Of a stretch of DNA of 53,315 bases, positions 11,103 to 47,803 are shown in pieces. Within the stretch, counting starts at the first letter, position 1. Each line of letters starts with the position of its first letter. A program made the position numbers and the translations under genes. The DNA comes from Planctomyces sp. SH-PL62 (GTDB taxonomy: Bacteria; Planctomycetota; Planctomycetia; Planctomycetales; Planctomycetaceae): positions 1 through 53,315 of the forward strand of contig CAMDDX010000008.1 in assembly GCA_945893075.1 (NCBI GenBank), written 5' to 3'. The notes under the pieces are model-generated. The model ran no database searches and was not told the origin of the DNA. It worked only from the letters and a program-made list of their open reading frames with translations.

Positions 11103-12140
11103 TCACGTGGTGCTGGTCGAGCGTTTCAGCAGCGGTGCTCGCAGAGTCGCCAGGGCGATCCCGCCCGCCAGCATCGTCAGGCTGATCCATTGCGCGCTGG
11201 TGAGAAGCGATCCGAACATCCCCATCTCGTCCCCGCGAAGACGCTCGATGAAGAACCGAGTGATTGGATACGTCAACAGAGCCAATGTGATGACCGATCC
11301 GTCGCGTGCTCGGATCGGGTAGTACGCCAGCGTCAGCCAGCACAGCAGCACGCCGTCGATGACGCTGTAAAGCTGAGTCGGATGAATCGGCAGGCTGACC
11401 TTCGCGTCGGCTGGCAAGAAGCCGCGGTCCATCTGGGACTTGAACACCATGCTGACTTCGGGGAACTCGACCGCCCAGGGGAGGTCGCACCGGTCGCCGA
11501 AACAGCAGCCGTACAAGAAGCAGCCGAACCGGCCAAACGCCATGCCCAGAAAGACCGAGGGGACGATTAGGTCTCCCAGCTTCCACGCATCGAGTTTCCG
11601 CGAGCGGCAGAACCACCAGAACACGACCGCGTTCGCGATCAGTCCGCCGAAAAAGACCAAACCGCCGTCGGGCAGCCAGATGGCGGCGGTCAGATAAGCC
11701 TGTGCGGTCTGACATTGAGCGAAGACTCGGTCGCCGTGCTGAATCAAATAGTACAGCCGTGCTCCGCCGACCCCGCCGACCAGGAACAAGAACGTCAAAT
11801 CCCAAATCGTCTCCAGCGGAAACCCCGCACGAGTCGCCCGGTGGCTGGCGAGCATCGTGGCAAACACGAAGCCCAGGCACATCATCATTCCGTAGCCGAA
11901 CACCGGAATCGAACTGCTCACTCTCGGAGCCAACACGATCGCCAGGCCAACCGCGCCGTAAGTCACCAAGTCGCCAACTGCGGGAGGTCCGCTGTTACTG
12001 CGTCGTGTCCGGAACCAGACGAACAAGCCGACAGCCAGCCACACGCCCAAGAGCAGTCCGAAACCAAACACCGGCACCTGACCGAGCGGCCCCAAGTCGA
12101 GCGATCCATCCAGCGGGATGCGGAACAAAATCGGCCGCAT
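11103..12140 (-). CDS. lgt: Prolipoprotein diacylglyceryl transferase
   Basis: Transfers diacylglycerol from phosphatidylglycerol to the cysteine of prolipoproteins, the first step of lipoprotein maturation in the inner membrane. 345 residues with about seven membrane segments. Family signatures present: 'LVGGVGGARLYYLI' (the essential arginine region), 'PDGGLVFFGGLI', the Lgt motif as 'GRFGCFLYGCCFG', then 'HPTQLYS' and the late 'RFFIERLRGDE'. In the classical motif GRxGNFxNG the asparagines are conserved; here both are replaced. The start at 12140 is followed by a short hydrophilic stretch and the first membrane helix. Between it and panC (same strand, upstream) sits a 66-bp repeat. Confidence 0.93.
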   Translation of the reverse strand: MRPILFRIPLDGSLDLGPLGQVPVFGFGLLLGVWLAVGLFVWFRTRRSNSGPPAVGDLVTYGAVGLAIVLAPRVSSSIPVFGYGMMMCLGFVFATMLASHRATRAGFPLETIWDLTFLFLVGGVGGARLYYLIQHGDRVFAQCQTAQAYLTAAIWLPDGGLVFFGGLIANAVVFWWFCRSRKLDAWKLGDLIVPSVFLGMAFGRFGCFLYGCCFGDRCDLPWAVEFPEVSMVFKSQMDRGFLPADAKVSLPIHPTQLYSVIDGVLLCWLTLAYYPIRARDGSVITLALLTYPITRFFIERLRGDEMGMFGSLLTSAQWISLTMLAGGIALATLRAPLLKRSTSTT

Positions 12141-12150
12141 GACATTTCCT

Positions 12151-12216
12151 GTAGCCGCGTTTCGCCAGAACGCGGGTGATCCGCGTGAGACCCGCGTTCT
12201 GGCGAAACGCGGCTAC
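12151..12216. repeat. REPIN-like element, GTAG...CTAC, at the panC stop
   Basis: 66 bp: GTAG, an arm with stem CCGCGTT/AACGCGG, a 16-base spacer, the inverted arm, then CTAC. The panC stop codon TAG (12215-12213) is read from the terminal CTAC. Same arm family as 14660-14724 and 47739-47803. Confidence 0.9.
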
Positions 12217-13061
12217 GAAAAGGGAATCAACAGGTTGTCGATCAGCCGTGTCGGCCCGACGCGAGCCGCGACCAGCGCGACCATACGCGGTTGCGGAACG
12301 GTCAACTCGGCCAACGAATCGGGATCGGCAATCGTCGCGTAATCGACGGCGATGCCCGGAGTCTGTTCCATTTCCGCTCGCATGGCCAGACGAATTGCGT
12401 CGAGGTTTTGCTCGCCCGATTTCACTTTGTCGCGAGCCAAACTCAACGCTCGATACAACGACAATCCGGAGGCCCGCTCGGTTGGACTGAGGTAAGCGTT
12501 GCGGCTGCTCAAAGCCAAACCGTCGGGATCGCGCACTGTCGGGCAGGTGACGATTTCGGTCGGGATGTCGAGGTCGCGGCACATATGGCGGATGATCGCC
12601 TGCTGCTGAAAATCCTTCTGACCGAAGTACGCCTTGTCCGGCTGCGTGAGGTTCAGAAGTTTGGTCACAATGGTCGTCACGCCGCGGAAGTGCCACGGCC
12701 GCACGGCACCCTCGAAGCTGGCCGTCAGACCTTCGACATGGACGAAGGTCGCGAATTCCGGCGGGTACATCGCAGCGGTGTCGGGTCGAAACAGCAGATC
12801 GACTCCCGCCGCGCGACACTTGTCGCGATCCGCCTCAAACGGCCGAGGATACTTTTGGAGATCTTCCCGCGGTCCGAACTGCGTCGGATTGACGAACAGC
12901 GTGGCGATGACGAAATCGCATTCTTGGCGAGCCGCGTCCATCAAACTGGTATGCCCCGCGTGCAATGCCCCCATCGTCGGCACGCAGCCAATCCGTTGGC
13001 CATTATGTCTGGCGGTCGCCACGCTGCGGCGAAGCTCGGCAAAATCGGCGGTGATCAACAT
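12213..13061 (-). CDS. panC: Pantothenate synthetase
   Basis: Joins pantoate and beta-alanine with ATP to make pantothenate (vitamin B5, coenzyme A route). 282 residues, normal for the family. ATP-binding 'PTMGALHAGHTSLM' (about residues 27-40, HxGH), 'FVNPTQFGPREDLQKYPR' (about 58-75), 'YFGQKDFQQ' (about 146-154, with K and Q for pantoate/ATP), and 'LALSSRNAYLS' (about 185-195) are all intact. The ATG at 13061 (MLITADF) is chosen over a longer frame without family similarity. The amber stop comes from a repeat head. No panB or panD is visible in the window. Confidence 0.96.
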   Translation of the reverse strand: MLITADFAELRRSVATARHNGQRIGCVPTMGALHAGHTSLMDAARQECDFVIATLFVNPTQFGPREDLQKYPRPFEADRDKCRAAGVDLLFRPDTAAMYPPEFATFVHVEGLTASFEGAVRPWHFRGVTTIVTKLLNLTQPDKAYFGQKDFQQQAIIRHMCRDLDIPTEIVTCPTVRDPDGLALSSRNAYLSPTERASGLSLYRALSLARDKVKSGEQNLDAIRLAMRAEMEQTPGIAVDYATIADPDSLAELTVPQPRMVALVAARVGPTRLIDNLLIPFS

Positions 13062-13224
13062 CGAACGCGGCAAAGAATTGGCGGACACGCAGTGGGACTC
13101 CCCAAGATGGAACACCTGACCCCGGCTCACCCGGCTCGCGGATTCTATTGACGTTGCAAACTGCCGAAAGGCCCGCGACGCTGGTGTTCGACATCGGGGC
13201 GTTTACATCGAGGAGTTTCACCGA

Positions 13225-14646
13225 ATGACAAGCCACGCAACTCAAGCTGACGCTGCGTGCGGAAAGAGCCGCTGGCAGGCTTGGCGAATCCTGATTCTGC
13301 TCTTGGCCGGAGCGGGGCTTCTCGCGTCCCCGGATTTTGTGTTGGCTCAAACGGCTTCCAAATCAAAGAGCAAGAAGTCCGATGCCCCTCAGCCGGCTGG
13401 GCCGCGAGACTACAGTTCGGCGAATTTTCTGGTGCATACCGATCTGCCCGAAGCCGAAGCCAACGATCTGCTCAAGCGGTTGGAGACCATGCTGACGTTG
13501 ATCTCGAAGTATTGGGGACGACCGAACAAGCAAACCATCGAGATGTTCGTGGTCCGCGATCTGGCAGTCTGGCCGCCGAATTCCTTGGACCCGGTCGGAC
13601 GAGAGATGATCCAGCAGAAGGCGGGGATCACCATGAGTACCGGCACGGTCAATCGCCAGACGGGAAAACTGTTGGCCGCGAAGGCTCGCGTTTATGCCAT
13701 CGCCGATCGAGGCGTGCCGCAGCACGAAGCGGTCCATGCCTACTGTCATCAAATGTTTGGCCATGCCGGGCCAACGTGGTATGCGGAAGGCATGGCCGAG
13801 ATGGGGCATTGCTGGCGCGACGGCGAATCGCGCGTGCATTGCCTGCCCATCGTCGTGAAATACCTGCGCGGCTCCGAGCCGAAGCCGCTGTTAGCGATCG
13901 TGAATAGCCGCGATCAAACCGGCGACTCGTGGCAGAACTACACATGGCGTTGGGCGCTCTGTCATCTGCTGGCGAACAATCCGAATTACTACGACCGCTT
14001 CCGCCCCTTGGGACTGGGCATCTTGGCCGATCAACCCGACGCGACGTTCGAGCGAGTTTACGGCTCAATGTCGAAGGAGATCGCCTTTGAGTATTTGTTT
14101 TTTCTCCAGCACTTCGATCTCGGCTACGAAGTCACGCTGACTGCCTGGGATTGGAAGACCAAATTCCGACATGCGATGCCGAAGGCACCCATCGTCTGCA
14201 CGGTTGAAGCGAATCGAGGCTGGCAGGCATCGCGGGTGATCGTCAGGAAAGGGGAGGAGTTTGAAGTCTCCGCCGAAGGGAGTTGGACTCTGTCCGCCGA
14301 TAGCCCGGAGTTGTCTCCGTTCGGCGTGGAGTTGCCGAATCAGAAGCCGCCCGAAAAGCCAGCGCCCGCCAAGAAGACCGTAACCTCAAAGCGGAATCTC
14401 AAAACGGAAGCGCTCGAAGAATTGCCGAGCATCATCCGTGATGAGTCTCCGTTCAAATCAGGCCAGTTGGTCGGCGTGCTCTTCAACGACTACGAGTTGA
14501 GTGAACCGTTCGCGATCCCGGCCGACGGATCGTTCGTCGCTCCGGGCGAGGGACAACTTTTCCTGCGCTGCGAAGACGCTTGGAATCGACTGGCGGACAA
14601 CAAGGGCAAGGTCAGTTTGAAGTTCAAATTGAAGACGGACAATTAG
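13225..14646 (+). CDS. Secreted zincin with C-terminal PA-IL/LecA-like domain
   Basis: A 473-residue exported protein: a signal peptide at about 20-41 (hydrophobic stretch LILLLAGAGLLA, cut after VLAQ), a central gluzincin-type domain with 'HEAVHAYCHQM' (residues ~170-180, zinc ligands of HExxH) and a downstream 'WYAEGMAEMGH' supplying the third ligand glutamate, and a C-terminal region (about 325-473) with 'GSWTLSADSPE' and 'GEGQLFLRCEDAWNRLADN', which resembles the calcium-dependent galactose-binding PA-IL/LecA fold. A Lys/Pro-rich insertion (about 375-400) interrupts the lectin-like part. It could be a surface or extracellular peptidase that binds a glycan; the lectin call is by pattern. 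Confidence 0.75.
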   Translation: MTSHATQADAACGKSRWQAWRILILLLAGAGLLASPDFVLAQTASKSKSKKSDAPQPAGPRDYSSANFLVHTDLPEAEANDLLKRLETMLTLISKYWGRPNKQTIEMFVVRDLAVWPPNSLDPVGREMIQQKAGITMSTGTVNRQTGKLLAAKARVYAIADRGVPQHEAVHAYCHQMFGHAGPTWYAEGMAEMGHCWRDGESRVHCLPIVVKYLRGSEPKPLLAIVNSRDQTGDSWQNYTWRWALCHLLANNPNYYDRFRPLGLGILADQPDATFERVYGSMSKEIAFEYLFFLQHFDLGYEVTLTAWDWKTKFRHAMPKAPIVCTVEANRGWQASRVIVRKGEEFEVSAEGSWTLSADSPELSPFGVELPNQKPPEKPAPAKKTVTSKRNLKTEALEELPSIIRDESPFKSGQLVGVLFNDYELSEPFAIPADGSFVAPGEGQLFLRCEDAWNRLADNKGKVSLKFKLKTDN

Positions 14647-14659
14647 CGCGTCACCCCTC

Positions 14660-14724
14660 GTAGCCGCGTTTCGCCAGAACGCGGGCTTGGGTCTCATCCC
14701 CGCGTTCTGGCGAAACGCGGCTAC
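14660..14724. repeat. REPIN-like element, GTAG...CTAC
   Basis: 65 bp, same arm family as 12151-12216, lying between the metalloprotease stop (14646) and the polyprenyl synthase start (14738). Longer translations of the downstream gene begin inside it and are not real. Confidence 0.9.
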
Positions 14725-14737
14725 GAAAGATTGCCGA

Positions 14738-15826
14738 ATGTCTGACTCCGCAGGATCGTTGCAAGCGTCTTGGTCCGCCTGGAAGACGCAGGTCGAAGCA
14801 GCGTTGGCGAAGTGTCTCTCTGAGGAAAGTGGACTCGGCGGCGAATGTCCACCACGGCTGCGCGAGTCGATGTCGTACAGCCTGCTCGCCGGTGGCAAGC
14901 GTCTCCGGCCGGTGCTGGTGCTCATGGCGTGCGAGGCTTGCGGTGGTGATTCCGAGGCCGCGCTGCCGGCGGCGTGTGCGATCGAGATGATTCACACGTA
15001 CTCGCTGATTCACGACGACCTGCCGTCGATGGACGACGACGACTATCGGCGCGGACGCCTGACCAATCACAAAGTCTTCGGTGAAGCGCTGGCGATCCTG
15101 GCCGGCGATGCTCTGCTGACGCTGGCCTTCGAGGTGGTCGCTCGCGACGTGCGACCCTCTTCGGTGGCAGCCGCTTGCTGCGCGGACCTCGCCTTCGCGG
15201 CCGGAGCGTGCGGCATGGTCGGCGGACAAGTCGCGGATCTCGAAGCCGAATCCCTGGAGTGCGGTGTGACCCAGATGCTGGGTGCCCCAACACCGCCCTC
15301 CATTCAATCAGCCACACGCTCCGTTGATGTCGCCAGCGCCGTTTTTGGCGAGAACTCATCGGGGCCGTCGTCAGTCGTCACGACAGCGCGAGCCGCCAAC
15401 GAATACCAACCCCCGCAATCAAATGGAGGGCTGCGTCGAGCCGCAGCACTCCAGGATTTGGAAGCCATCCATCGCCGCAAGACGGGCCGGCTCATTCGTT
15501 CGGCACTGACGCTCGGCGGACGAATTGCTCAGGCCGATGTCGCGAAGCTCGGCACGCTGGACCATTACGGCACCTGCATCGGTCTGGCGTTTCAGATTGC
15601 CGACGATGTGCTCGACGTGACCGGAACGCAGGACAAGTTGGGCAAAGGGGTCGGCAAGGACGCGAGCCTCGGCAAGCTGACGTATCCGGGCCTGATCGGC
15701 TTGGACCGCAGCCGCCAGATGGCTCAAGAGTTGATCGACGAAGCATGCCTCGCGATCGCACCGTGGGGCGAGTGTGGCCAACGCTTGGAAGCGATGGCTC
15801 GATTCGTTCTCGAACGAGACCATTGA
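14738..15826 (+). CDS. Polyprenyl (farnesyl/geranylgeranyl) diphosphate synthase with in-frame repeat insertion
   Basis: Condenses isopentenyl diphosphate with allylic diphosphates (FPP/GGPP type), cytoplasmic. 362 residues, about 67 more than usual. The first aspartate-rich motif 'HDDLPSMDDDD' is at ~92-102, GGKRLRP at ~52-58, and the second motif 'QIADDVLD' at ~286-293; HRRKTG at ~245-250. Residues 173-239 do not resemble the family: they are encoded exactly by a 201-bp dispersed repeat (15254-15454) with inverted ends. The reading frame continues cleanly on both sides ('ADLEAES' | 'DLEAIHRRKTG'). All catalytic motifs are retained, so the enzyme may tolerate the extra loop. FPP versus GGPP specificity cannot be told from this. 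Confidence 0.92.
   Translation: MSDSAGSLQASWSAWKTQVEAALAKCLSEESGLGGECPPRLRESMSYSLLAGGKRLRPVLVLMACEACGGDSEAALPAACAIEMIHTYSLIHDDLPSMDDDDYRRGRLTNHKVFGEALAILAGDALLTLAFEVVARDVRPSSVAAACCADLAFAAGACGMVGGQVADLEAESLECGVTQMLGAPTPPSIQSATRSVDVASAVFGENSSGPSSVVTTARAANEYQPPQSNGGLRRAAALQDLEAIHRRKTGRLIRSALTLGGRIAQADVAKLGTLDHYGTCIGLAFQIADDVLDVTGTQDKLGKGVGKDASLGKLTYPGLIGLDRSRQMAQELIDEACLAIAPWGECGQRLEAMARFVLERDH
15254..15454. repeat. 201-bp GGAG-headed palindromic element inside the polyprenyl synthase
   Basis: Starts CTGGAGTGCGG and ends GCACTCCAG; inner arms GCCCTCCATTCAATC and CAATCAAATGGAGGGC pair. The length is 67 codons and the ends coincide with codon boundaries. Related copies lie in spacers at 33109-33290 and 37918-38078. 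The left arm carries a further small hairpin (GACCCAGATGCTGGGT) where other copies have a short loop, as if a second repeat had landed in it. Confidence 0.88.
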
Positions 15827-15836
15827 CGATCAACCT

Positions 15837-15936
15837 GGGGTCGGGTGTTCGGTTTTTCGGAATTGGCGGGAAGAGAGGTTGGATTGCAAATGACGCGTAC
15901 CTCCCGCCAATTTCGAAAAACCGAACACCCGACCCC
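15837..15936. repeat. 100-bp inverted repeat, 35-base arms
   Basis: Arms beginning GGGGTCGGGTGTTCGG and ending CCGAACACCCGACCCC match at 34 of 35 positions by eye, with a 30-base centre. It begins ten bases after the polyprenyl synthase stop and ends where the DUF4062 remnant begins, so it marks the break in that gene. Confidence 0.85.
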
Positions 15937-17501: not shown

Positions 17502-18491
17502 ATGCCTGAGCCACTGCTTTATCTGAAAGCGATGGGAGCCGCCGCCATCGTCAGCGCGATCATCGTGCTGACGATGGTAGCCACGCTCGCCAAGAGCGTG
17601 GAGATTCGCGGGAAAACCCACGCTCTTGGCGAGCGTGGCTACATGACGTGGCTGAATTTCTCCTGCGTCTTGGGGATTGGACTCGGGCTTGTGGTCGGCT
17701 ACCGCATGGTGTCGTTGCGATTGGCCTGGCCTCCCGTGAACGGTCTCGATCGGTTCTTAACGATCACCGTTCCATTGGCCCTCGGCATCGAACTGATCGC
17801 GGGATTCCAGAACGTCCCGCGTTGGGTCGCGTGGCTATTGCGGATGAGCCTGGCTGCAACGATCCCAAGAATCTTGTTGCACGGTTCCGTTTACTTGAGC
17901 GATGCTCCTGAAGGCTGGACTCCGTGGCAGACCGGCATGGCGCTGGTGGTGTGTGGAGCCTTGTTGGCTGGTGTGTGGAGTCTGCTTTCCTGGTTGTCCC
18001 AGCGTTCCCCAGGTTCCTCGATTCCATTGGCACTCTGTCTGCCGATCCTGTGTGCCGGTCTGACCGTGATGATGGCCGGTTACATCAAGGGAGGACTCGC
18101 GGCTTTCCCGTTGGTGGCGACGCTCGTGGCAACAACCATCGGGGCCAGACTGATGTCGAAACGCTCTTTCGCACTGGCCAACTTTCGCGCGCCGGCGATC
18201 GTTGGAGTCGGAGTGGTGGGTTTGTTCGGCCTGTTGTTCGTCGGTCATTTTTTCGGCCGACTCTCGACCGGCTATGCGCTGGCCATACTGCTCTCGCCAC
18301 TCTTGTGCTGGGTGACCGAGATGCCGCAACTGCGGCACCGGAAGCCGTGGCTTGTGGGATCGGTGCGGTTGGTGCTGATCGCGATCCCGCTGCTGGTGGT
18401 GCTGGCTGCGGCGAAGCGTGATTTTGACCGGGACATGGCCCCGCTGCTGGGAAAGATCGCGGCAGCTTCCCGATCAGCCGCAGGGCGCTAG
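17502..18491 (+). CDS. Multi-spanning membrane protein with in-frame repeat insertion
   Basis: A 329-residue integral membrane protein with about eight or nine hydrophobic helices and no recognised family. The first helix (about 11-25) is followed directly by 22 residues (V26-Y47) encoded by a complete 66-bp repeat, then the next helix (about 51-70) follows. The insertion is in frame and falls in the loop between the first two helices, where it adds a charged, polar segment. The stop codon TAG (18489-18491) lies inside a second repeat (18476-18534), which also encodes the last residues (SAAGR). Both ends of this gene's product have thus been reshaped by repeats. It follows YceI closely and may be its partner. 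Confidence 0.75.
   Translation: MPEPLLYLKAMGAAAIVSAIIVLTMVATLAKSVEIRGKTHALGERGYMTWLNFSCVLGIGLGLVVGYRMVSLRLAWPPVNGLDRFLTITVPLALGIELIAGFQNVPRWVAWLLRMSLAATIPRILLHGSVYLSDAPEGWTPWQTGMALVVCGALLAGVWSLLSWLSQRSPGSSIPLALCLPILCAGLTVMMAGYIKGGLAAFPLVATLVATTIGARLMSKRSFALANFRAPAIVGVGVVGLFGLLFVGHFFGRLSTGYALAILLSPLLCWVTEMPQLRHRKPWLVGSVRLVLIAIPLLVVLAAAKRDFDRDMAPLLGKIAAASRSAAGR
17577..17642. repeat. 66-bp REPIN-like element inside a coding region
   Basis: GTAG, arm with stem CCACGCTC/GAGCGTGG, 16-base spacer, inverted arm, CTAC. It spans codons 26-47 of the membrane protein exactly in phase (first codon GTA, last codon TAC). Confidence 0.9.
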
Positions 18492-31865: not shown

Positions 31866-33107
31866 ATGCCGATGGAACGTGAATCAAGCTCGCCTTCGGA
31901 AGAAGTTGAACTCGCCGGGCACATCATCGACAGTTTGCTGCTGCCGAAGGTGCTCGACGAAATTATGTCACAAGGGGGACGGTTCGAGATTCTCAACATC
32001 TCGGTCGGGCAGCGGCGGCAAGATCCCAGCGCGGCGCGGTTGCTGGTCAGTGCGGACTCGACCGAACATCTCGACAAGATTGTGCGGGACATTGGACGAC
32101 ACGGTGCCGTCAGGATTCATCAACAAGATGCGGAACTCGTGCCCGCCGACATGGACGGAGCGTTTCCCGAAGGCTTCTTCTGCTCGACCAACCAGGAGAC
32201 GCAGGTGCGCATTGGCGGTGTGTGGCATCGCGTCGAACGGCCGGAGATGGACTGCGGGCTGGTGGTGTCGTCCGACAAGAAGGTTGCCACGCTTCCGATG
32301 GCCGACGCCCGCAAGGGCGACCTAATCGTCGTCGGGCATCACGGCACGCGCGTGCTGCCGCAGGAGCGTGATCGAGACAAGCTCGGCGTGTTTGGCTTCA
32401 TGCAGAGCACCGTCGGCAGCGAGAAGCCCAAGAACTTTACCGTCCGCGAGATCGCTGCCGAGATGCGTCGTGCAAAACAAGGGGACGGTAAAATTCTTGT
32501 CGTCGCCGGTCCGGCTGTCGTGCATACCGGCAGCCGAGAACATCTCAGCCGCCTGATTCGCGAGGGTTACGTGCATGTGCTCTTCGCCGGCAATGCGTTG
32601 GCGACTCACGACATCGAGCAATCGTTCTTCGGCACCAGTCTTGGCATCTCGATGGAGAGCGGCGGCGGAACGGCTGAAGGGCACGAGCATCACCTGCGTT
32701 CGATCAATCGCATCCGCCGGCTCGGCAGTATTCGCAACGCGGTCGAGCAAGGGACGCTGACCAGTGGCATCATGTTCGAGTGCGTGCAGCACAACGTCCC
32801 GTTCGTCCTCGCCGGCAGCATCCGCGACGACGGCCCGCTCCCCGACGTCATCACTGACGCGCTGGCCGCTCAAGCGGCGATGCGTGAATTGATTCATTCG
32901 CAAGGCGTGACGTTCTGCTTGATGATCGCCACGACGCTGCACTCAATCGCCGTCGGCAATCTGCTGCCGGCATCGGTGAAGACCGTCTGCGTAGATATCA
33001 ACCCGGCCACGGTCACGAAGCTCGCCGATCGCGGCACGTTTCAGTCGATTGGCCTCGTGACGGACGTTGAGCCGTTCTTGCGCGTGCTGGTCGAGGAAGT
33101 GACATAA
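31866..33107 (+). CDS. LOR/SDH-domain protein, archaeal-type ornithine cyclodeaminase-like
   Basis: A 413-residue protein of the TIGR00300 LOR/SDH family. The N-terminal ~115 residues match the LOR/SDH conserved region ('GHIIDSLLLPKVLDEI', 'FEILNISVGQRRQDPS'); the C-terminal region binds NAD ('ILVVAGPAVVHTGSREHL', 'YVHVLFAGNALATHDIE', 'VCVDINPATVTKL'). An archaeal member has been reported to convert ornithine to proline plus ammonia; in cyanobacteria the domain forms part of an arginine-catabolic enzyme. So ornithine cyclodeaminase is the likely activity, by homology only. It stands 24 bases after the DUF2442 gene and is followed by a palindromic element. Confidence 0.82.
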   Translation: MPMERESSSPSEEVELAGHIIDSLLLPKVLDEIMSQGGRFEILNISVGQRRQDPSAARLLVSADSTEHLDKIVRDIGRHGAVRIHQQDAELVPADMDGAFPEGFFCSTNQETQVRIGGVWHRVERPEMDCGLVVSSDKKVATLPMADARKGDLIVVGHHGTRVLPQERDRDKLGVFGFMQSTVGSEKPKNFTVREIAAEMRRAKQGDGKILVVAGPAVVHTGSREHLSRLIREGYVHVLFAGNALATHDIEQSFFGTSLGISMESGGGTAEGHEHHLRSINRIRRLGSIRNAVEQGTLTSGIMFECVQHNVPFVLAGSIRDDGPLPDVITDALAAQAAMRELIHSQGVTFCLMIATTLHSIAVGNLLPASVKTVCVDINPATVTKLADRGTFQSIGLVTDVEPFLRVLVEEVT

Positions 33108-33108
33108 C

Positions 33109-33290
33109 CTGGAGTGCGGTGGCTCGACACCGCCCTCCATTCGATTGCGGGAATTTGCGTGAGCAGTCATCGACCTTCATCGTGCTGCGGTAATTTCGAC
33201 CAGCGTCTTCTCACGACGACGGTTTTTCGTCAGTCGATGCCTTTATCCCGCAAATGATGGAGGGCGGTGTCGAGCCGCCGCACTCCAAGG
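33109..33290. repeat. 182-bp GGAG-headed palindromic element
   Basis: Begins CTGGAGTGCGGTGGCTCGAC 2 bases after a stop codon and ends CGAGCCGCCGCACTCCAAGG immediately before the next start codon (33291). Inner arms GCCCTCCATTCGATTGCGGG and ...CCCGCAAATGATGGAGGGC also pair. Its terminal AAGG lies next to the start, too close for a normal Shine-Dalgarno unless the ATG at 33297 is used. Related to 15254-15454 and 37918-38078. Confidence 0.88.
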
Positions 33291-33974
33291 ATGCCCATGA
33301 ACTACTTCGCTCACTCCATTCGATTCCTCGACCGACCGTACTTTGTCGTCGGGACGAACGTGCCGGATTGGTTGTCGGTCGTCGATCGGCAAGTGCGGAT
33401 GCGGAGCAAGCTGGTCGAGCCGTTCATGCTCAATGATGGCTCGATTCAATCGGAGGTCGCGGCTGGTGTGTGGCAGCATCTGGACGACGACCGCTGGTTT
33501 CATCAGACGCGCGCGTTCACGGAACTCAGCGCCGATCTGGCCGTCAAGTTCCGCGATGCTCTCGCCCCCGATGAGAGTTTGCGAGCGGGATTCCTCGGCC
33601 ACATCGTCACCGAATTGCTGATCGACGCCGAACTCATCGAACGGCATCCGGGGCAGATCGAGCGGTATTACGACGTGCTCCGCTCGATCGAACCGCTGGC
33701 CGTGCAACAGGCCATCAACGCGATGGCCAAGCAGCCGACGGAGCAGATCGTGCCACTGATCCCGCGATTCATCGACGAACGCTTTCTGCCGGACTACCTG
33801 GCCGACGACCGTTTGTTGCGTCGCTTGAACCAAGTGATGAAGCGGGTCAAACTGCCGCCTCTTCCGGCCGAGGCGGAATCTGTTTTGCGTCTCGCCCGCC
33901 CGCTCATCCGTGACCGGCTGAGCGATCTGCTGCCGGAAGAGCACTTTCAATTCCCATCCGTACCGCGACCGTGA
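33291..33974 (+). CDS. Uncharacterised protein, possibly acyl-carrier-protein phosphodiesterase-like
   Basis: A 227-residue soluble protein. The start 'MNYFAHSIRFLDRPYFVVGTNVPDWLS' (from residue 3, split) and 'HQTRAFTEL' around residue 78, plus 'GFLGHIVTELLIDAELI', recall helical ACP phosphodiesterase (AcpH/DUF479) or HD-like proteins with conserved N-YFAH, D and H residues; the match is only by pattern. The ATG at 33297 may be the real start, since AAGG from the repeat end is then at a good distance. The stop TGA and the last residues (SVPRP) are coded by the repeat at 33957-34030, so the C-terminus has been altered. Confidence 0.6.
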   Translation: MPMNYFAHSIRFLDRPYFVVGTNVPDWLSVVDRQVRMRSKLVEPFMLNDGSIQSEVAAGVWQHLDDDRWFHQTRAFTELSADLAVKFRDALAPDESLRAGFLGHIVTELLIDAELIERHPGQIERYYDVLRSIEPLAVQQAINAMAKQPTEQIVPLIPRFIDERFLPDYLADDRLLRRLNQVMKRVKLPPLPAEAESVLRLARPLIRDRLSDLLPEEHFQFPSVPRP

Positions 33975-34030
33975 GGGAGCGGCCAGCCCCAACGACTACC
34001 GAGCCCGCTCCCTCACGGTCGCGGTACGGA
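33957..34030. repeat. 74-bp perfect inverted repeat providing a stop codon
   Basis: Arms TCCGTACCGCGACCGTGAGG(GAGCGG) and its exact complement, 26 bases each, around a 22-base centre. The TGA at 33972-33974 ends the upstream gene. No GTAG/GGAG head, so a distinct family. Confidence 0.88.
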
Positions 34031-36228: not shown

Positions 36229-37914
36229 ATGCACGGTCTCGAAGCATTTAAGAGCGATCCGAACGCCGAGGCCGGCCTGGGGCCGTGGTACAAGGAACTC
36301 AATCGCTATCACTGGTTCGTGTTGTTCGTGTCGGTGTTGGGCTGGCTGTTCGACACGATGGACCAGCAGTTGTTCAACCTCGCGCGAGGCCCGGCCATCG
36401 CGGAATTGCACGGGCCGCAAGAGGCTCAGTGGTACGGCGGCTTGGCGACGACGATCTTCATGCTCGGCTGGGCCACGGGCGGGATCATCTTCGGCATCAT
36501 GGGAGACCGCCTCGGCCGAGCCAAAACAATGGTCATCACGATCCTGTTGTACTCGCTCTTCACCGGGCTGAGCGCCGCGTCGGTCGGGTACTGGGATTTC
36601 GTGTTCTATCGGTTCCTGACGGGACTCGGAGTCGGCGGTGAATTCGCGGTCGGCGTGGCGTTGGTGGCGGAGGTCATGCCGGATCGGGCACGGCCTCATG
36701 CGTTGGGTTGGCTGCAAGCCTGCTCGGCGATTGGCAACATCTCGGCCGCGTTTGTCAGCATGGGACTGGCACCGCTGGAAGCAGCGGGGGCGCTCGGCGA
36801 ATGGAAGCCGTGGCGATACATGTTCCTGGTTGGAGCCTTGCCGGCACTGTTGGCGTTGTTTGTTCGCCGCCGCCTGCAAGAGCCGGAAAAATGGAAAGCC
36901 CTTCGCGCGGACAAGACACAAAAGCTCGGTTCGATTCCCGAGTTGCTGGGTGTCCCATTTCTCCGCCGTCGCGCGATCGTCGGTTTGATCTTGGCCACTT
37001 CGGGAGTCGTAGGCTTGTGGGGCATCGGCTTCTTTAGCTTTGAGCTGGTGCGGACGGTCTTCCGGCAGACGTTCGAAAGCGAAGCGCGCGCGAAGGGCGA
37101 GGACAAAGTCGATCAAGATTTCATTCGCGCGGTCCTGCAAGATGCCAAGCTGATGGAGACTGCCACCGAGAAGCTCAGTTCGCCCAATGCGATGGTGACT
37201 CCCGAAGCGAAGGCTCTGTACGGAGCCGTGCTCAAGCTGAGCAAAGCCAAGAAACCCGTGTCGTTGGAGTCGGCGTTGAAGCTGCTCGATGACGACCCCA
37301 AGCGGCCTCAGTCGGCAGCCGACCGAGCGAGCCGAGAACAGTTCGTCGGCGAGCCGTTGTCTGACATCCCTGAGTCGGTGCCGCACTTGGACGACATCGC
37401 GAAACGCAACAAAGCGATGGAAGGCCGGCTGACGTGGTGGGCCGGCGTGAACGGCTTGCTGTTCAACATCGGCGCGTTCTTCGGAATCTACAGCTTCGCC
37501 AAGATCACGCATCGCATCGGCCGCAAGCCGGCGTTCGCGATTACGTTCGTGCTAGCGCTGTTGGCGACGGCGTTCGCGTTCTCATCGCTGAAGGAATTTT
37601 CGCACGTCTATTGGATGGTGCCGCTGATGGGCTTTTGCCAGATCGCGCTGTTCGGCGGCTACGCGATTTATTTCCCAGAGTTGTTCCCAACTCGGCTACG
37701 CAGCACGGGCGTGTCGTTCTGCTACAACGTCGGCCGCTATCTGGCCGCCCCCGGCCCGCTGCTGTTGGGCTATCTGGCCGACATGGTCTACGGCCACCAC
37801 GGCGATGTCTTGGCCATGCGCTACGCCGGCGTGACGATGTGCTCGTTCTTCGTGCTGGGGATGGTGGCGCTGCCGTTCGCCCCAGAGACCAAGGGCCAGC
37901 CGCTGCCGGAGTGA
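36229..37914 (+). CDS. MFS transporter, sugar/aromatic-acid type, with large central loop
   Basis: A 561-residue inner-membrane transporter of the major facilitator superfamily. Twelve helices can be placed in two sets (about 26-205 and 240-260 plus 400-555). The loop-2 signature 'GDRLGRAKTM' (about 96-105) and the matching 'THRIGRKPAFA' (~425) are present, and 'RFLTGLGVGGEFAVGVALVAEVMP' elements (about 125-148) are typical of sialate/carboxylate and aromatic-acid symporters. Between helices 7 and 8 is a roughly 130-residue charged segment (about 275-400) unlike the usual 20-30 residues. Substrate unknown. It is followed at once by a palindromic element. Confidence 0.88.
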   Translation: MHGLEAFKSDPNAEAGLGPWYKELNRYHWFVLFVSVLGWLFDTMDQQLFNLARGPAIAELHGPQEAQWYGGLATTIFMLGWATGGIIFGIMGDRLGRAKTMVITILLYSLFTGLSAASVGYWDFVFYRFLTGLGVGGEFAVGVALVAEVMPDRARPHALGWLQACSAIGNISAAFVSMGLAPLEAAGALGEWKPWRYMFLVGALPALLALFVRRRLQEPEKWKALRADKTQKLGSIPELLGVPFLRRRAIVGLILATSGVVGLWGIGFFSFELVRTVFRQTFESEARAKGEDKVDQDFIRAVLQDAKLMETATEKLSSPNAMVTPEAKALYGAVLKLSKAKKPVSLESALKLLDDDPKRPQSAADRASREQFVGEPLSDIPESVPHLDDIAKRNKAMEGRLTWWAGVNGLLFNIGAFFGIYSFAKITHRIGRKPAFAITFVLALLATAFAFSSLKEFSHVYWMVPLMGFCQIALFGGYAIYFPELFPTRLRSTGVSFCYNVGRYLAAPGPLLLGYLADMVYGHHGDVLAMRYAGVTMCSFFVLGMVALPFAPETKGQPLPE

Positions 37915-37917
37915 GCC

Positions 37918-38078
37918 CTGGAGTGCTGCGGCTCGACGCAGCCCTCCATCCAATTGGAATAGCGGCGTCCGTAATCCCAAAAACCACGCTGACAATCGGC
38001 GGGTTGAAGGGCGTTTTCCTACGATCAACGTCGTCATTTCAACTGAATGGAGGGCTCCGTCAAGCCGGAGCACTCCAG
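37918..38078. repeat. 161-bp GGAG-headed palindromic element
   Basis: CTGGAGTGCTGCGGCTCGAC at the left and GCCGGAGCACTCCAG at the right, with inner arms GCCCTCCAT and ATGGAGGGC. It starts 3 bases after the MFS stop and ends 16 bases before the sigma-STN stop, filling the convergent gap. Same family as 15254-15454 and 33109-33290, but the centre differs completely. Confidence 0.88.
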
Positions 38079-45169: not shown

Positions 45170-45306
45170 GCCTGGGTTTACCACGGGCCGTCTGTGTCCT
45201 CGCGACACCCGCGAGCGTTAGAGGATTCTAGGTCGCGAATGAAGTAAGCGAAAGCGGGTTGTCACGGTCGAGACTCGTCATACGCGAGATGCTCAACGCT
45301 CCGTTC

Positions 45307-45409
45307 GCACACTAACCCGACGCGAGAGCGAGGGTGAACGCTTCAAATCGTTCTGAATTCGTAGTCCTGTGAAGCGTGCTCCCTCGCTTGCGCGTCGGGT
45401 TAGTGTGTG
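45307..45409. repeat. 103-bp CACTAACCCGA inverted repeat
   Basis: Arms CACACTAACCCGACGCG...GCGAGGG and CCCTCGCTTGCGCGTCGGGT(TAGTGTG) pair with few mismatches around a 50-base centre that itself carries GAACGCTTCA/TGAAGCGT. One arm of this family is embedded in the LarA-like gene at 30678-30716. Confidence 0.85.
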
Positions 45410-45614
45410 AAGACGACGATGGAATCGGGTGCGATCCGCACAACCGGAAAACTCGCCGTCGTTTGCCAATCGCTGAGAACGCGAACTCCCCACGCAGACC
45501 AAGGTTTGAGCACGAGACTCACCGCACGCTCGGCACGACCGGAGAAGCCCTCAAGCACGGCACAACCGGAGTTCGATCAAGAGCCTGCCGCACAGATTGC
45601 GCTCTCGTTCCGTG

Positions 45615-45680: not shown

Positions 45681-47732
45681 ATGTACGAAGAATTCTTTGG
45701 ACTGCAACGCCGGCCGTTCTCGGCGACTCCGGATGCCAATTGCTTTGTACCGCTGGAGGCCCATCAGGGAGTCCTCGATGCGCTGGCGGTCTCGTGTGAA
45801 CGAGGGCAGGGGATCGGCGTACTGACGGGAGAGGCTGGGCTCGGCAAGTCGCTGGTCGGGTTGCGATTGGCGTTTGAACTGCAACCGACGTTCGCGACCG
45901 TGTTCCTGGGACACTCGGCCTATGCGACTCGGCGAGCGTTATTGCAGGCGATCCTCTACGAATTGAACCGGCCGTTTGACCGTAAGGCTGAGCAAGAATT
46001 GCGGCTCGAACTGGCCTCCGCGCTGAAGTCGCTTCGTTCAGAGAAGCAGGGCTTCGTGCTCATTGTCGATGAAGCCCATCGGCTGAGTTTGCCGTTGCTC
46101 GACGAACTTCGCTTGCTGACGCTGTTGGCCGAGGGGGGCGAGCCACTCGCCAGGGTCGTGCTCATCGGCGACCGCGATCTCGAAGAACGATTGGCCAATC
46201 CAGAACTCGCCGCGTTCAATCAGCGAGTTTGCTGCCAAGTCGATCTCGCCCCGCTGACTCAGGTCGAGTCGCTGGAATATCTGAGCGCGCACTTGGAGTT
46301 CGCTGGCGGCGAAGCGGAGGAGATTTTTACCGAGGAAGCGTTGGCGTTCCTGGCCAAGGCGGCCGATGGTGTGCCGCGCTGTTTGAATCATCTGGCCGAC
46401 CACGCGCTGCTGCTCGCATACGTCACCGAGCGTCGTCCGGTCTCGGCCGAGATCGTGCGTGAGGCACTCAATGACTTGAAGCAACTTCCACTGCACTGGA
46501 ACGATCCCATCAGCGGCGGCGAGATCTATCGTGGCTTGTCGCAGCGGCCCGCGATGGAAGACTCAGCCGTCGATCTGTGGCCGCAGCAGGAACAGGCCGT
46601 CGAAGAGGAGACTCACGAGACAAACTCGTGGAATGAGTCTGCGTTCGGCGGATCGAGCGCGGCGATTGAAATCGGTGGTGAGCTCGACGAATCAACGGCC
46701 GAGCCACAAGAACAGGAAGCGGTCGCGGCCCAACAACTCACGTGCCTCAAAGAGAATTGGCAAACGATCACTCGGCAGTCGTCGGTCGACGAACTCTTGG
46801 CGAACGTCACCGAACTGACTCAGGCGATCGAGGACGGACAAGACCCGCCGACGCTGGGCCAAGTGTTCGACGCGCGGGAGTATGAATTCGGTCGTCCGTC
46901 GCCGCGTTCGTTCGCGGTCGAGGAATTCGCGGCCGAGGAGAACGACTCCGATTTCGAGAGCGAGTCCCACGACGATCGTTGGACTCCACAAGCCGACGAC
47001 GACAGCGACGAGCCGGTTTGGAATCTGCCCGAACGATCGTGGTCGGTGGATGACGACCGGCAGGTCGAGTTTGAAGAGGAGCCGGTGATCGACCGCTACG
47101 TCCGCATCGCGAGCGGTGAAGGCGTCGTCTGGAATCATCACGTCCCGCATGCTCGCACGGCCGCGAAACGGACCGCGACGGCGGTGAAGACGACGCGACT
47201 CGTGATGGCGGCGGCCGGCGTTGACGACGAGTCTGATGGGACAAATCAGACGCATGAGTCGTATGAGTCCCATCCGCAGGAAACTGATTCCGGCTTCGGT
47301 GATTCAGGGATCGTCGAGAGCTATTCGCGGAAGCCGCGAGACGTGGGGCAGGTTTCCAACCTGCCCGTCCAGAAATCTGAGCAAGCTGCCTCGGACGATC
47401 ACGGGCAGGTTGAAAACCTGCCCCACGAGAAGCGCGACTGGCATCTGCCGACCGAGTTGTTGAAAGCGACGCTCGCGGACGACGGGATCGAGGAGCAGAT
47501 CGGCGCGGATGTGCTCGATATGTACCTCGACGTGCAGCAGTCGCTGCTCGACCATCGCGTGGCTTCCGGTCGACCGAAAGCGGATTCGTTGCCGCCAATC
47601 GTTGACGAGTTCCCCTCGGAGACGAACGCAGAATGCGATGAGCATCTGGAATCGCAGCCAGTCACTAAGCCCGACGCGATTCAACGTGCCTACGGGCGGT
47701 TGTTCAGCGAACTGCGACGCAAAAAGAGATAG
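45681..47732 (+). CDS. ExeA/GspA-like AAA ATPase with long acidic tail
   Basis: A 683-residue protein. The N-terminal 270 residues are an ExeA-type AAA ATPase: 'YEEFFGLQRRPFSATPDANCF' start pattern, Walker A 'TGEAGLGKSL' (about 49-58), Walker B 'FVLIVDEAHRL' (about 124-134), sensor 'VVLIGDRDLEERL'. The rest (about 290-683) is acidic, low in structure, and ends with 'AIQRAYGRLFSELRRKKR'. In other bacteria ExeA helps assemble secretins through peptidoglycan; related ATPases also accompany transposition. There is no transmembrane segment. Residues about 555-582 are coded by a dispersed palindromic repeat read in frame (47342-47427). Confidence 0.85.
   Translation: MYEEFFGLQRRPFSATPDANCFVPLEAHQGVLDALAVSCERGQGIGVLTGEAGLGKSLVGLRLAFELQPTFATVFLGHSAYATRRALLQAILYELNRPFDRKAEQELRLELASALKSLRSEKQGFVLIVDEAHRLSLPLLDELRLLTLLAEGGEPLARVVLIGDRDLEERLANPELAAFNQRVCCQVDLAPLTQVESLEYLSAHLEFAGGEAEEIFTEEALAFLAKAADGVPRCLNHLADHALLLAYVTERRPVSAEIVREALNDLKQLPLHWNDPISGGEIYRGLSQRPAMEDSAVDLWPQQEQAVEEETHETNSWNESAFGGSSAAIEIGGELDESTAEPQEQEAVAAQQLTCLKENWQTITRQSSVDELLANVTELTQAIEDGQDPPTLGQVFDAREYEFGRPSPRSFAVEEFAAEENDSDFESESHDDRWTPQADDDSDEPVWNLPERSWSVDDDRQVEFEEEPVIDRYVRIASGEGVVWNHHVPHARTAAKRTATAVKTTRLVMAAAGVDDESDGTNQTHESYESHPQETDSGFGDSGIVESYSRKPRDVGQVSNLPVQKSEQAASDDHGQVENLPHEKRDWHLPTELLKATLADDGIEEQIGADVLDMYLDVQQSLLDHRVASGRPKADSLPPIVDEFPSETNAECDEHLESQPVTKPDAIQRAYGRLFSELRRKKR
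47342..47427. repeat. 86-bp inverted repeat inside the ExeA-like gene
   Basis: Arms CGTGGGGCAGGTTTCCAACC(TGCCCGT) and (ACGGGCA)GGTTGAAAACCTGCCCCACG flank a 32-base centre. Each arm is itself a hairpin (GGCAGGTT/AACCTGCC). It adds about 28 residues including 'GQVSNLPV' and 'GQVENLPH' in the disordered tail. A relative (GGGCACGTTGAAAACGTGCC) lies at 7678-7701. Confidence 0.85.
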
Positions 47733-47738
47733 CTCGTT

Positions 47739-47803
47739 GTAGCCGCGTTCGCCAGAACGCGGGGATCGAAGACGCTCCCCCGCGTTCTGGCGAACGCGGC
47801 TAC
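47739..47803. repeat. REPIN-like element, GTAG...CTAC, at the DUF1570-like stop
   Basis: 65 bp, same arm family as 12151-12216 and 14660-14724. The reverse-strand gene ends on the TAG read from the terminal CTAC (47802-47800). It fills the convergent gap after the ExeA-like gene. Confidence 0.9.

Follow-up and report, generated by a model that had tools for sequence, protein, structure and literature searches.

A BIME-like palindromic element read in frame in a prenyl diphosphate synthase gene of a planctomycete

The principle of in-frame insertion of REPs or other palindromic repeats into genes is already published, for Rickettsia, Opitutus and others (PMC3733652, PMC10969869). The palindromic elements of Rickettsia (RPEs) are repeats of about 150 bp that fall into several families and lie in frame in unrelated genes as well as between genes (PMC10969869, PMC3733652). 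GTAG/CGTC REPs are intragenic in Opitutus (Opitutus terrae), Thauera, Rickettsia, Xanthomonas and others; their in-frame copies encode 20-82 residues, and in two Xanthomonas species different REPs lie at nearly the same place in recB (PMC3733652). RAYT genes are flanked by REPs (PMC6006769), REPs are known in Planctomycetes (PMC3733652, PMC6006769), and class 3 TnpA-Y1, from Planctomycetes and Acidobacteria, comprises Y1 genes whose flanking hairpins are of a non-GTAG type and recur across the genome (PMC6006769). We found no in-frame palindromic insert in a planctomycete protein in the open-access literature; the intragenic-REP supplement of PMC3733652 (Additional file 3) could list one.

Here we describe such an insert in a 53,315-nucleotide stretch of DNA, the whole of which we call the window, from a freshwater planctomycete MAG (G000; 7.57 Mb, 484 contigs, 92.9 percent complete). 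Positions 15254-15454 of the window hold one copy of a repeat that we name F1, read in frame as residues 173-239 of the ORF 14738-15826. With a probability that we put at roughly 0.82, this is a non-autonomous element of the REP-pair (BIME) type that sits in frame in a helix-connecting loop, its translation giving a surface loop that is flexible and unconstrained.

Anatomy of the F1 family

The earlier note on this DNA had described a 201-bp palindromic repeat, 67 codons long and set on a codon boundary. The boundary is exact, as base 15254 opens codon 173 and base 15454 closes codon 239, but the conserved ends of the family (CC..GG) lie about 2 bases further out on each side, so that 201 bp is a choice of boundary. 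Similarly, the ends are palindromic, but the element is not one long palindrome: two inverted hairpin units enclose a core of about 120 nt. The left unit (15255-15302, plus strand) is a long variant with an inner ACCCAGATGCTGGGT palindrome, which occurs at one end in 13 of the 81 full F1 copies, this one included, whilst the right unit (15424-15453) reads TGGAGTGC-TGCG-GCTCGA-CGCA-GCCCTCCA on the minus strand. The core between them (15303-15423, plus strand) is stop-free in the frame of the gene and specific to this copy, and element positions 63-147 are covered by none among the own-genome matches listed. The description of the plus-strand feature as a REP-pair or BIME-like element draws on the repeat matches, the frame and the folding of the RNA (z -3.96 against dinucleotide shuffles); against mononucleotide shuffles z is -2.3, i.e. 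the insert is moderately structured by folding energy alone. The shared ends reported for copies near 33109 and 37918 were recovered at 33110-33287, directly 3' of the stop of gene 31866-33107, and at 37919-38077, directly 3' of the stop of gene 36229-37914, both listed without a strand.

In the whole of G000, the end pattern TGGAGTGCN{8,38}GCCCTCC occurs 148 + 143 times on the two strands, giving 291 exact ends, and the reversed pattern, used as a control, has 0 + 0 matches in the same 7.57 Mb. The pattern is present in 10 of the 12 genomes of the genus; outside G000 no strand has more than 21 hits, and G002 and G011, both of which have a short ispA loop, have none. Copies were extracted from about 346 kb of G000 stretches around listed matches, where 90 intervals yielded 81 full copies, nine having been dropped for having an inner unit as an end. 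The distance from TGGAG to CTCCA is most commonly 161-163 nt (43/81 full copies), and it is divisible by three in 34 of the 81, near the third expected. Some units are nested or in tandem (L073 701-1019 and 9871-10163, L092 117-1256, L097 2511-3074), and the three L092 copies have a common flank, so that the unit was duplicated together with its surroundings.

The end hairpin has the form TGGAG-t-GC-NNNN-GCTYGA-NNNN-GC-c-CTCCA. Both ends take this 30-nt form in 68 of 81 copies, and there the four variable positions of the stem make standard local pairs in 539 of 544 cells, whereas pairing across the two ends of the same copies reaches 429 of 544, no better than shuffles (mean 438, maximum 458). 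The stem positions thus covary locally and not across the ends, so that each end is an independent hairpin unit; a single long end-to-end hairpin is rejected. The foot is mostly preceded by ACCC, and TGGAG opens the stem itself. As the GT[AG]G tetranucleotide does not occur 0-2 nt 5' of the hairpin foot in F1, we do not file the family in the GTAG superfamily, although it works like a BIME.

Could a DDE transposase instead move F1, as an IS-derived MITE bounded by terminal inverted repeats? Inverted ends of about 50 bp, a size of 160-200 bp and the conserved CC/GG termini all fit such an element. However, direct repeats of 3-8 nt, as left by target-site duplication, were not above shuffles in 80 of the 81 copies (one flank being too short), and a copy can have ends that do not match, each forming its own hairpin. 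Moreover, the ends are near-identical among 45 standard-length copies while their cores are far more diverged, and of the 163 ends contained in the window and 54 G000 stretches, 158 have an inverted partner no more than 300 bp away, with neither a long transposase-bearing copy nor any autonomous relative combining F1 ends and a transposase among those 163. We therefore regard a MITE as unlikely, if still deserving of attention.

The window holds further palindromes around the F1 copies. A GTAG-headed one lies just 5' of the start codon of the synthase gene (14658-14726) and an F5-type one ten bases 3' of its stop (15837-15936), while 33957-34030 belongs to F4, the family found inserted in the G003 ispA, and 45304-45411 is, as judged by eye, like the F3 family inserted in the G004 ispA. 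GTAGCC stands at the foot of four palindromes, at 12151-12216, 14658-14726, 17577-17642 and 47739-47803, which fit canonical GTAG REPs. The one at 17577-17642, a perfect hairpin of 25 nt with a GTAG head, is read in frame close to the N-terminus of a protein that has no Pfam match (gene 17502-18491); the actual start codon of that gene may be further downstream. Another in-frame palindrome, at 47342-47427 (GQVSNLP..GQVENLPH), lies inside an AAA-ATPase gene (45681-47732; PF13401), and its family also fills loop D of the helicase Lhr in several species.

The host gene and the reading of the insert

The host (14738-15826, plus strand) encodes an IspA or farnesyl-type short-chain prenyl diphosphate synthase of 362 aa. 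Its PF00348 match (E 1.5e-53) is split into two stretches, it scores 345 bits against the NCBIfam model FPPsyn NF045485 (cut-off 275), and its top Foldseek matches are CrtE and FPP synthases. The Asp-rich motifs DDLPSMDDDD (93-102) and DD289-290/D293, invariant in a structure alignment of 43 synthases (P0001 and 42 of 80 loci), are kept here; the catalytic motifs are thus intact on both sides of the insert, as had been read from the sequence. The AlphaFold2 model has a mean pLDDT of 83.8, with values over 90 for most of the enzyme and under 50 for residues 179-182 and 187-221, which lie in the loop joining helices 160-180 and 231-263; most of residues 173-239 are accordingly predicted to form a disordered loop between two helices.

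The insert residues are absent from all 29 other orthologues read. The earlier note had set 362 residues against some 295 without the element, and only the first figure stands: over the same match, G002 and G011 (L107, L111) have 305 codons, which makes for a net gain of 57 residues and not 67. With a loop of 19 residues in these two species versus 76 in G000, about ten native loop residues must be gone or replaced. An assembly error is unlikely, since window positions 11806-15847 are colinear with the sister genome G003 (L104) except at the insert. A known structured RNA was also rejected, as the window has no match to any Rfam family at the gathering threshold.

Taken with its insert, the gene looks functional, on the strength of its intact motifs, purifying selection on its core and the lack of a close second homologue. 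Core dN/dS is 0.04-0.09 against eight congeners (224 core codons), a value that integrates the whole branch to each relative and would let a very recent loss of function escape. In its own genome, the next prenyl-synthase match covers residues 39-137 only (E 8e-9). These observations bear on the suggestion that the insertion killed the enzyme and that the open frame of a recent pseudogene survives by chance. The insertion is indeed young, being absent from every other genus genome read, and an intact second copy could be missing from a MAG that is 92.9 percent complete. Yet 67 extra codons are open without a frameshift, the invariant catalytic residues are kept, and congeners keep the gene with other in-frame inserts at the same loop. 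Together with the dN/dS values and the paralogue search, this leads us to reject a pseudogene or a redundant paralogue, and we would be surprised to see either return.

It could also be imagined that the hairpin is bypassed by the ribosome or removed from the mRNA in the manner of an intron, and that the enzyme is made without the insert. A yeast mitochondrion and gene 60 of phage T4 provide known cases of bypassed hairpin insertions, and the strong RNA fold at the insert site would suit such a mechanism. Still, a skipped insert need be neither stop-free nor a multiple of three, whereas the ispA inserts stay in one open frame wherever both halves of an orthologue lie on one contig, and the inserts in the Lhr and kinase loops described below do likewise. 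This openness is not a general property of the repeat: although 66 of the 81 full F1 copies have one or more of the six frames open, typical copies contain stops, the open fraction per frame being 0.11-0.41 as against 0.12 for mononucleotide shuffles. Considering in addition the window's lack of an Rfam family, we think bypass or removal very improbable. F1 might conceivably have evolved to be readable in all frames, but base composition alone may explain the open fractions.

The same loop in sister species, and other genes

Ten ispA orthologues were read in the genus, that of G007 being partial and split over two contigs; G006 and G010 gave no ispA match of this kind. The corresponding loop holds a hairpin of about 140 bp in G009, a CTAACCCG..CGGGTTAG hairpin of the F3 family in G004, with a decayed relative in G005, and a CCGTACCGCGACC hairpin of the F4 family in G003, with a remnant in G007. 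It is short in G002 and G011, and longer but devoid of a significant fold in G001 and G008; a significant palindrome is absent from the loops of G005, G008 and G001 (z -1.0, 0.4 and -0.3, respectively). The inserts of G000, G009, G004 and G003 are mutually dissimilar, save for 21 nt that G003 and G004 share at the native end of the loop. Those of G009, G004 and G003 each match many places in all 12 genus genomes and so represent repeat families, although the match numbers are not copy numbers, since both strands of a palindrome are counted and mostly 40 candidates per genome were scored. The ispA and lhr tree places G000 in a group with G003, G010 and G007, although some of its support is modest; at least four separate gains of an insert at the ispA loop are needed.

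Not every long loop can be traced in this way. To take those of G001 and G008 as decayed F1 copies is unsupported, as they have no F1 match and no significant fold, and resemble each other only. The short loop of G011 may be a remnant of the G003 family, to which it is 82-84 percent identical over 37-38 nt, but that stretch is partly the shared native loop end. The G008 gene (L109 3001-3936) has one stop codon in its draft genome. In two other planctomycete lineages, L018 and L030, the same ispA site has repeat-like sequence in loops 59 and 39 residues long. Loop length does vary across the class, with 26-59 residues outside the genus (L018, L021, L022, L025, L030), as would be expected of a fast-evolving linker whose likeness to repeats came from gene conversion or chance, but this least credible of the alternatives is excluded for G000, where the insert has both complete F1 units in the correct spacing and orientation, and for G003, G004 and G009, the inserts of which are copies of genome-wide repeats.

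The synthase is not the only host. Elsewhere in G000, F1 is read in frame in the gene of an Lhr-type helicase and in the genes of two Ser/Thr kinases that are paralogues, and these copies coexist with others outside genes; an in-gene position was established for 4 of the 81 full copies, which amount to three events given the paralogy of the kinases. The F5 family is likewise in frame in the G000 Lhr gene. Genus alignments show inserts that differ between species at five Lhr loops and one kinase loop. Loop D of Lhr is mostly filled by one family (GQV..NLP) and the remaining loops by several, and loop C has a full F1 pair in G000 but one unit alone in G009 and G010, a pattern suggestive of decay by deletion. 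Of the ispA, lhr and kinase loop sequences surveyed, 30/64 fold with z of -5.0 or below (mononucleotide shuffles); the G000 sample in this survey was picked for containing F1, and its F1 counts are thus biased upward.

The kinase paralogues allow the insert to be compared with its surroundings. The two copies (L081 2303-2428 and 6038-6163) differ at 5 of 132 nt (dN 0.041, dS 0.032); for the flanks, dS is 0.33 and 0.18 and dN 0.005 and 0.025. At the level of sequence, this fits an insert that would be without protein-level constraint. The low total divergence also points to conversion between copies: synonymous sites in the flanks have diverged more than the insert, as if the latter had been converted or conserved at the DNA level.

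A candidate transposase and the comparison with known systems

Which enzyme could move F1? A survey of all 91 Y1_Tnp (PF01797) loci in the 12 genus genomes found hairpins with at most 4 mismatches from F1 at three only, L245, L266 and L048. At L245 (G001), an F1 pair and a further F1 unit lie directly upstream of the Y1 gene, and on that side only; the gene itself is interrupted by a TGA. At L048 (G000) and L266 (G001), complete pairs of F6 (TGGACTGCGGCAGCCTGCTGCCGCTTTCC), a family related to F1 but different from it, stand on both sides of the Y1 gene. Among the 91 loci, the pieces of the L245 gene match only L266 (59 and 43 percent) and L048 (57 and 49 percent) by tblastn, so that all three hairpin-bearing loci point to one RAYT subfamily that accompanies the F1-type hairpin. 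F1 itself was found beside none of the 8 Y1 genes of G000, and the link between F1 and this subfamily is an indirect one. At another of the G000 loci, L046, an F5 palindrome lies before the Y1 ORF (1417-2586), inside it in frame, and at its end (1327-1431, 1848-1950 and 2499-2604).

We posit that a RAYT-class Y1/HUH transposase moves these REP pairs as single-stranded DNA, as suggested by the lack of target-site duplication in conjunction with hairpins beside genes of one RAYT subfamily. Mobilisation of single-stranded DNA is expected to leave no such duplication. Insertions would land in many places, and selection would retain the copies that are open in the right frame and lie in loops tolerating extra residues; the helix-connecting loop of IspA may be one such tolerant site, and would for this reason have been filled repeatedly. 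Inserts would then decay by deletion, and could be replaced by the next element. The peptide encoded by the insert is probably made, and SVDVASAVFGENSSGPSSVVTTAR and AANEYQPPQSNGGLR are the tryptic peptides internal to it. More tentatively, certain surface loops might act as recurrent docking sites that unrelated RAYT-type families enter, and where they decay and are replaced in turn, perhaps with a preference for old hairpin remnants; we consider this possible rather than probable. If true, a proteome would gain and lose loop segments at a steady rate driven by selfish DNA.

Regardless of how the elements travel, the observation of in-frame selfish DNA in Rickettsia is here extended to another phylum, with a comparison set made up of one enzyme loop in one genus, at least four unrelated families and insert-free neighbours as controls. 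It thereby becomes testable whether such segments are tolerated junk or have been recruited, and which enzyme moves them. For annotators, there is a warning that additional segments of planctomycete proteins may stem from repeats; the inserts also provide natural insertion sites that the enzymes tolerate.

Compared with the systems described so far, F1 resembles MITEs in being short, non-autonomous and present in many copies with inverted ends, but it differs in having no target-site duplication, and no parent IS is found in the sampled stretches. With class 3 TnpA-Y1 it may share the setting of planctomycete Y1 genes with atypical flanking hairpins; that class, however, has a CnGA foot (PMC6006769). 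The likeness to the RPEs drawn in the earlier note, namely a palindromic insertion in frame in genes with further copies between them, is borne out by the multi-copy family, the intergenic copies, the open frame, the intact motifs and the dN/dS of the core, and further by the predicted unstructured loop and by colinearity with G003 except at the insert. It is a likeness of description, in another phylum, and in contrast to the RPEs, unrelated families here occupy the same enzyme loop of sister species, with a candidate transposase class in sight. With the REPs and BIMEs, F1 has in common hairpin units, here of 30 nt, a high copy number, inverted pairs and intragenic in-frame copies. Its head, TGGAG, lies inside the stem and is not an unpaired GTAG or CGTC, the unit is larger (67 codons), and several unrelated families recur at the same loops across the genus. 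The novelty lies in the planctomycete clade, in the scale, and in unrelated families having used the same loops again and again.
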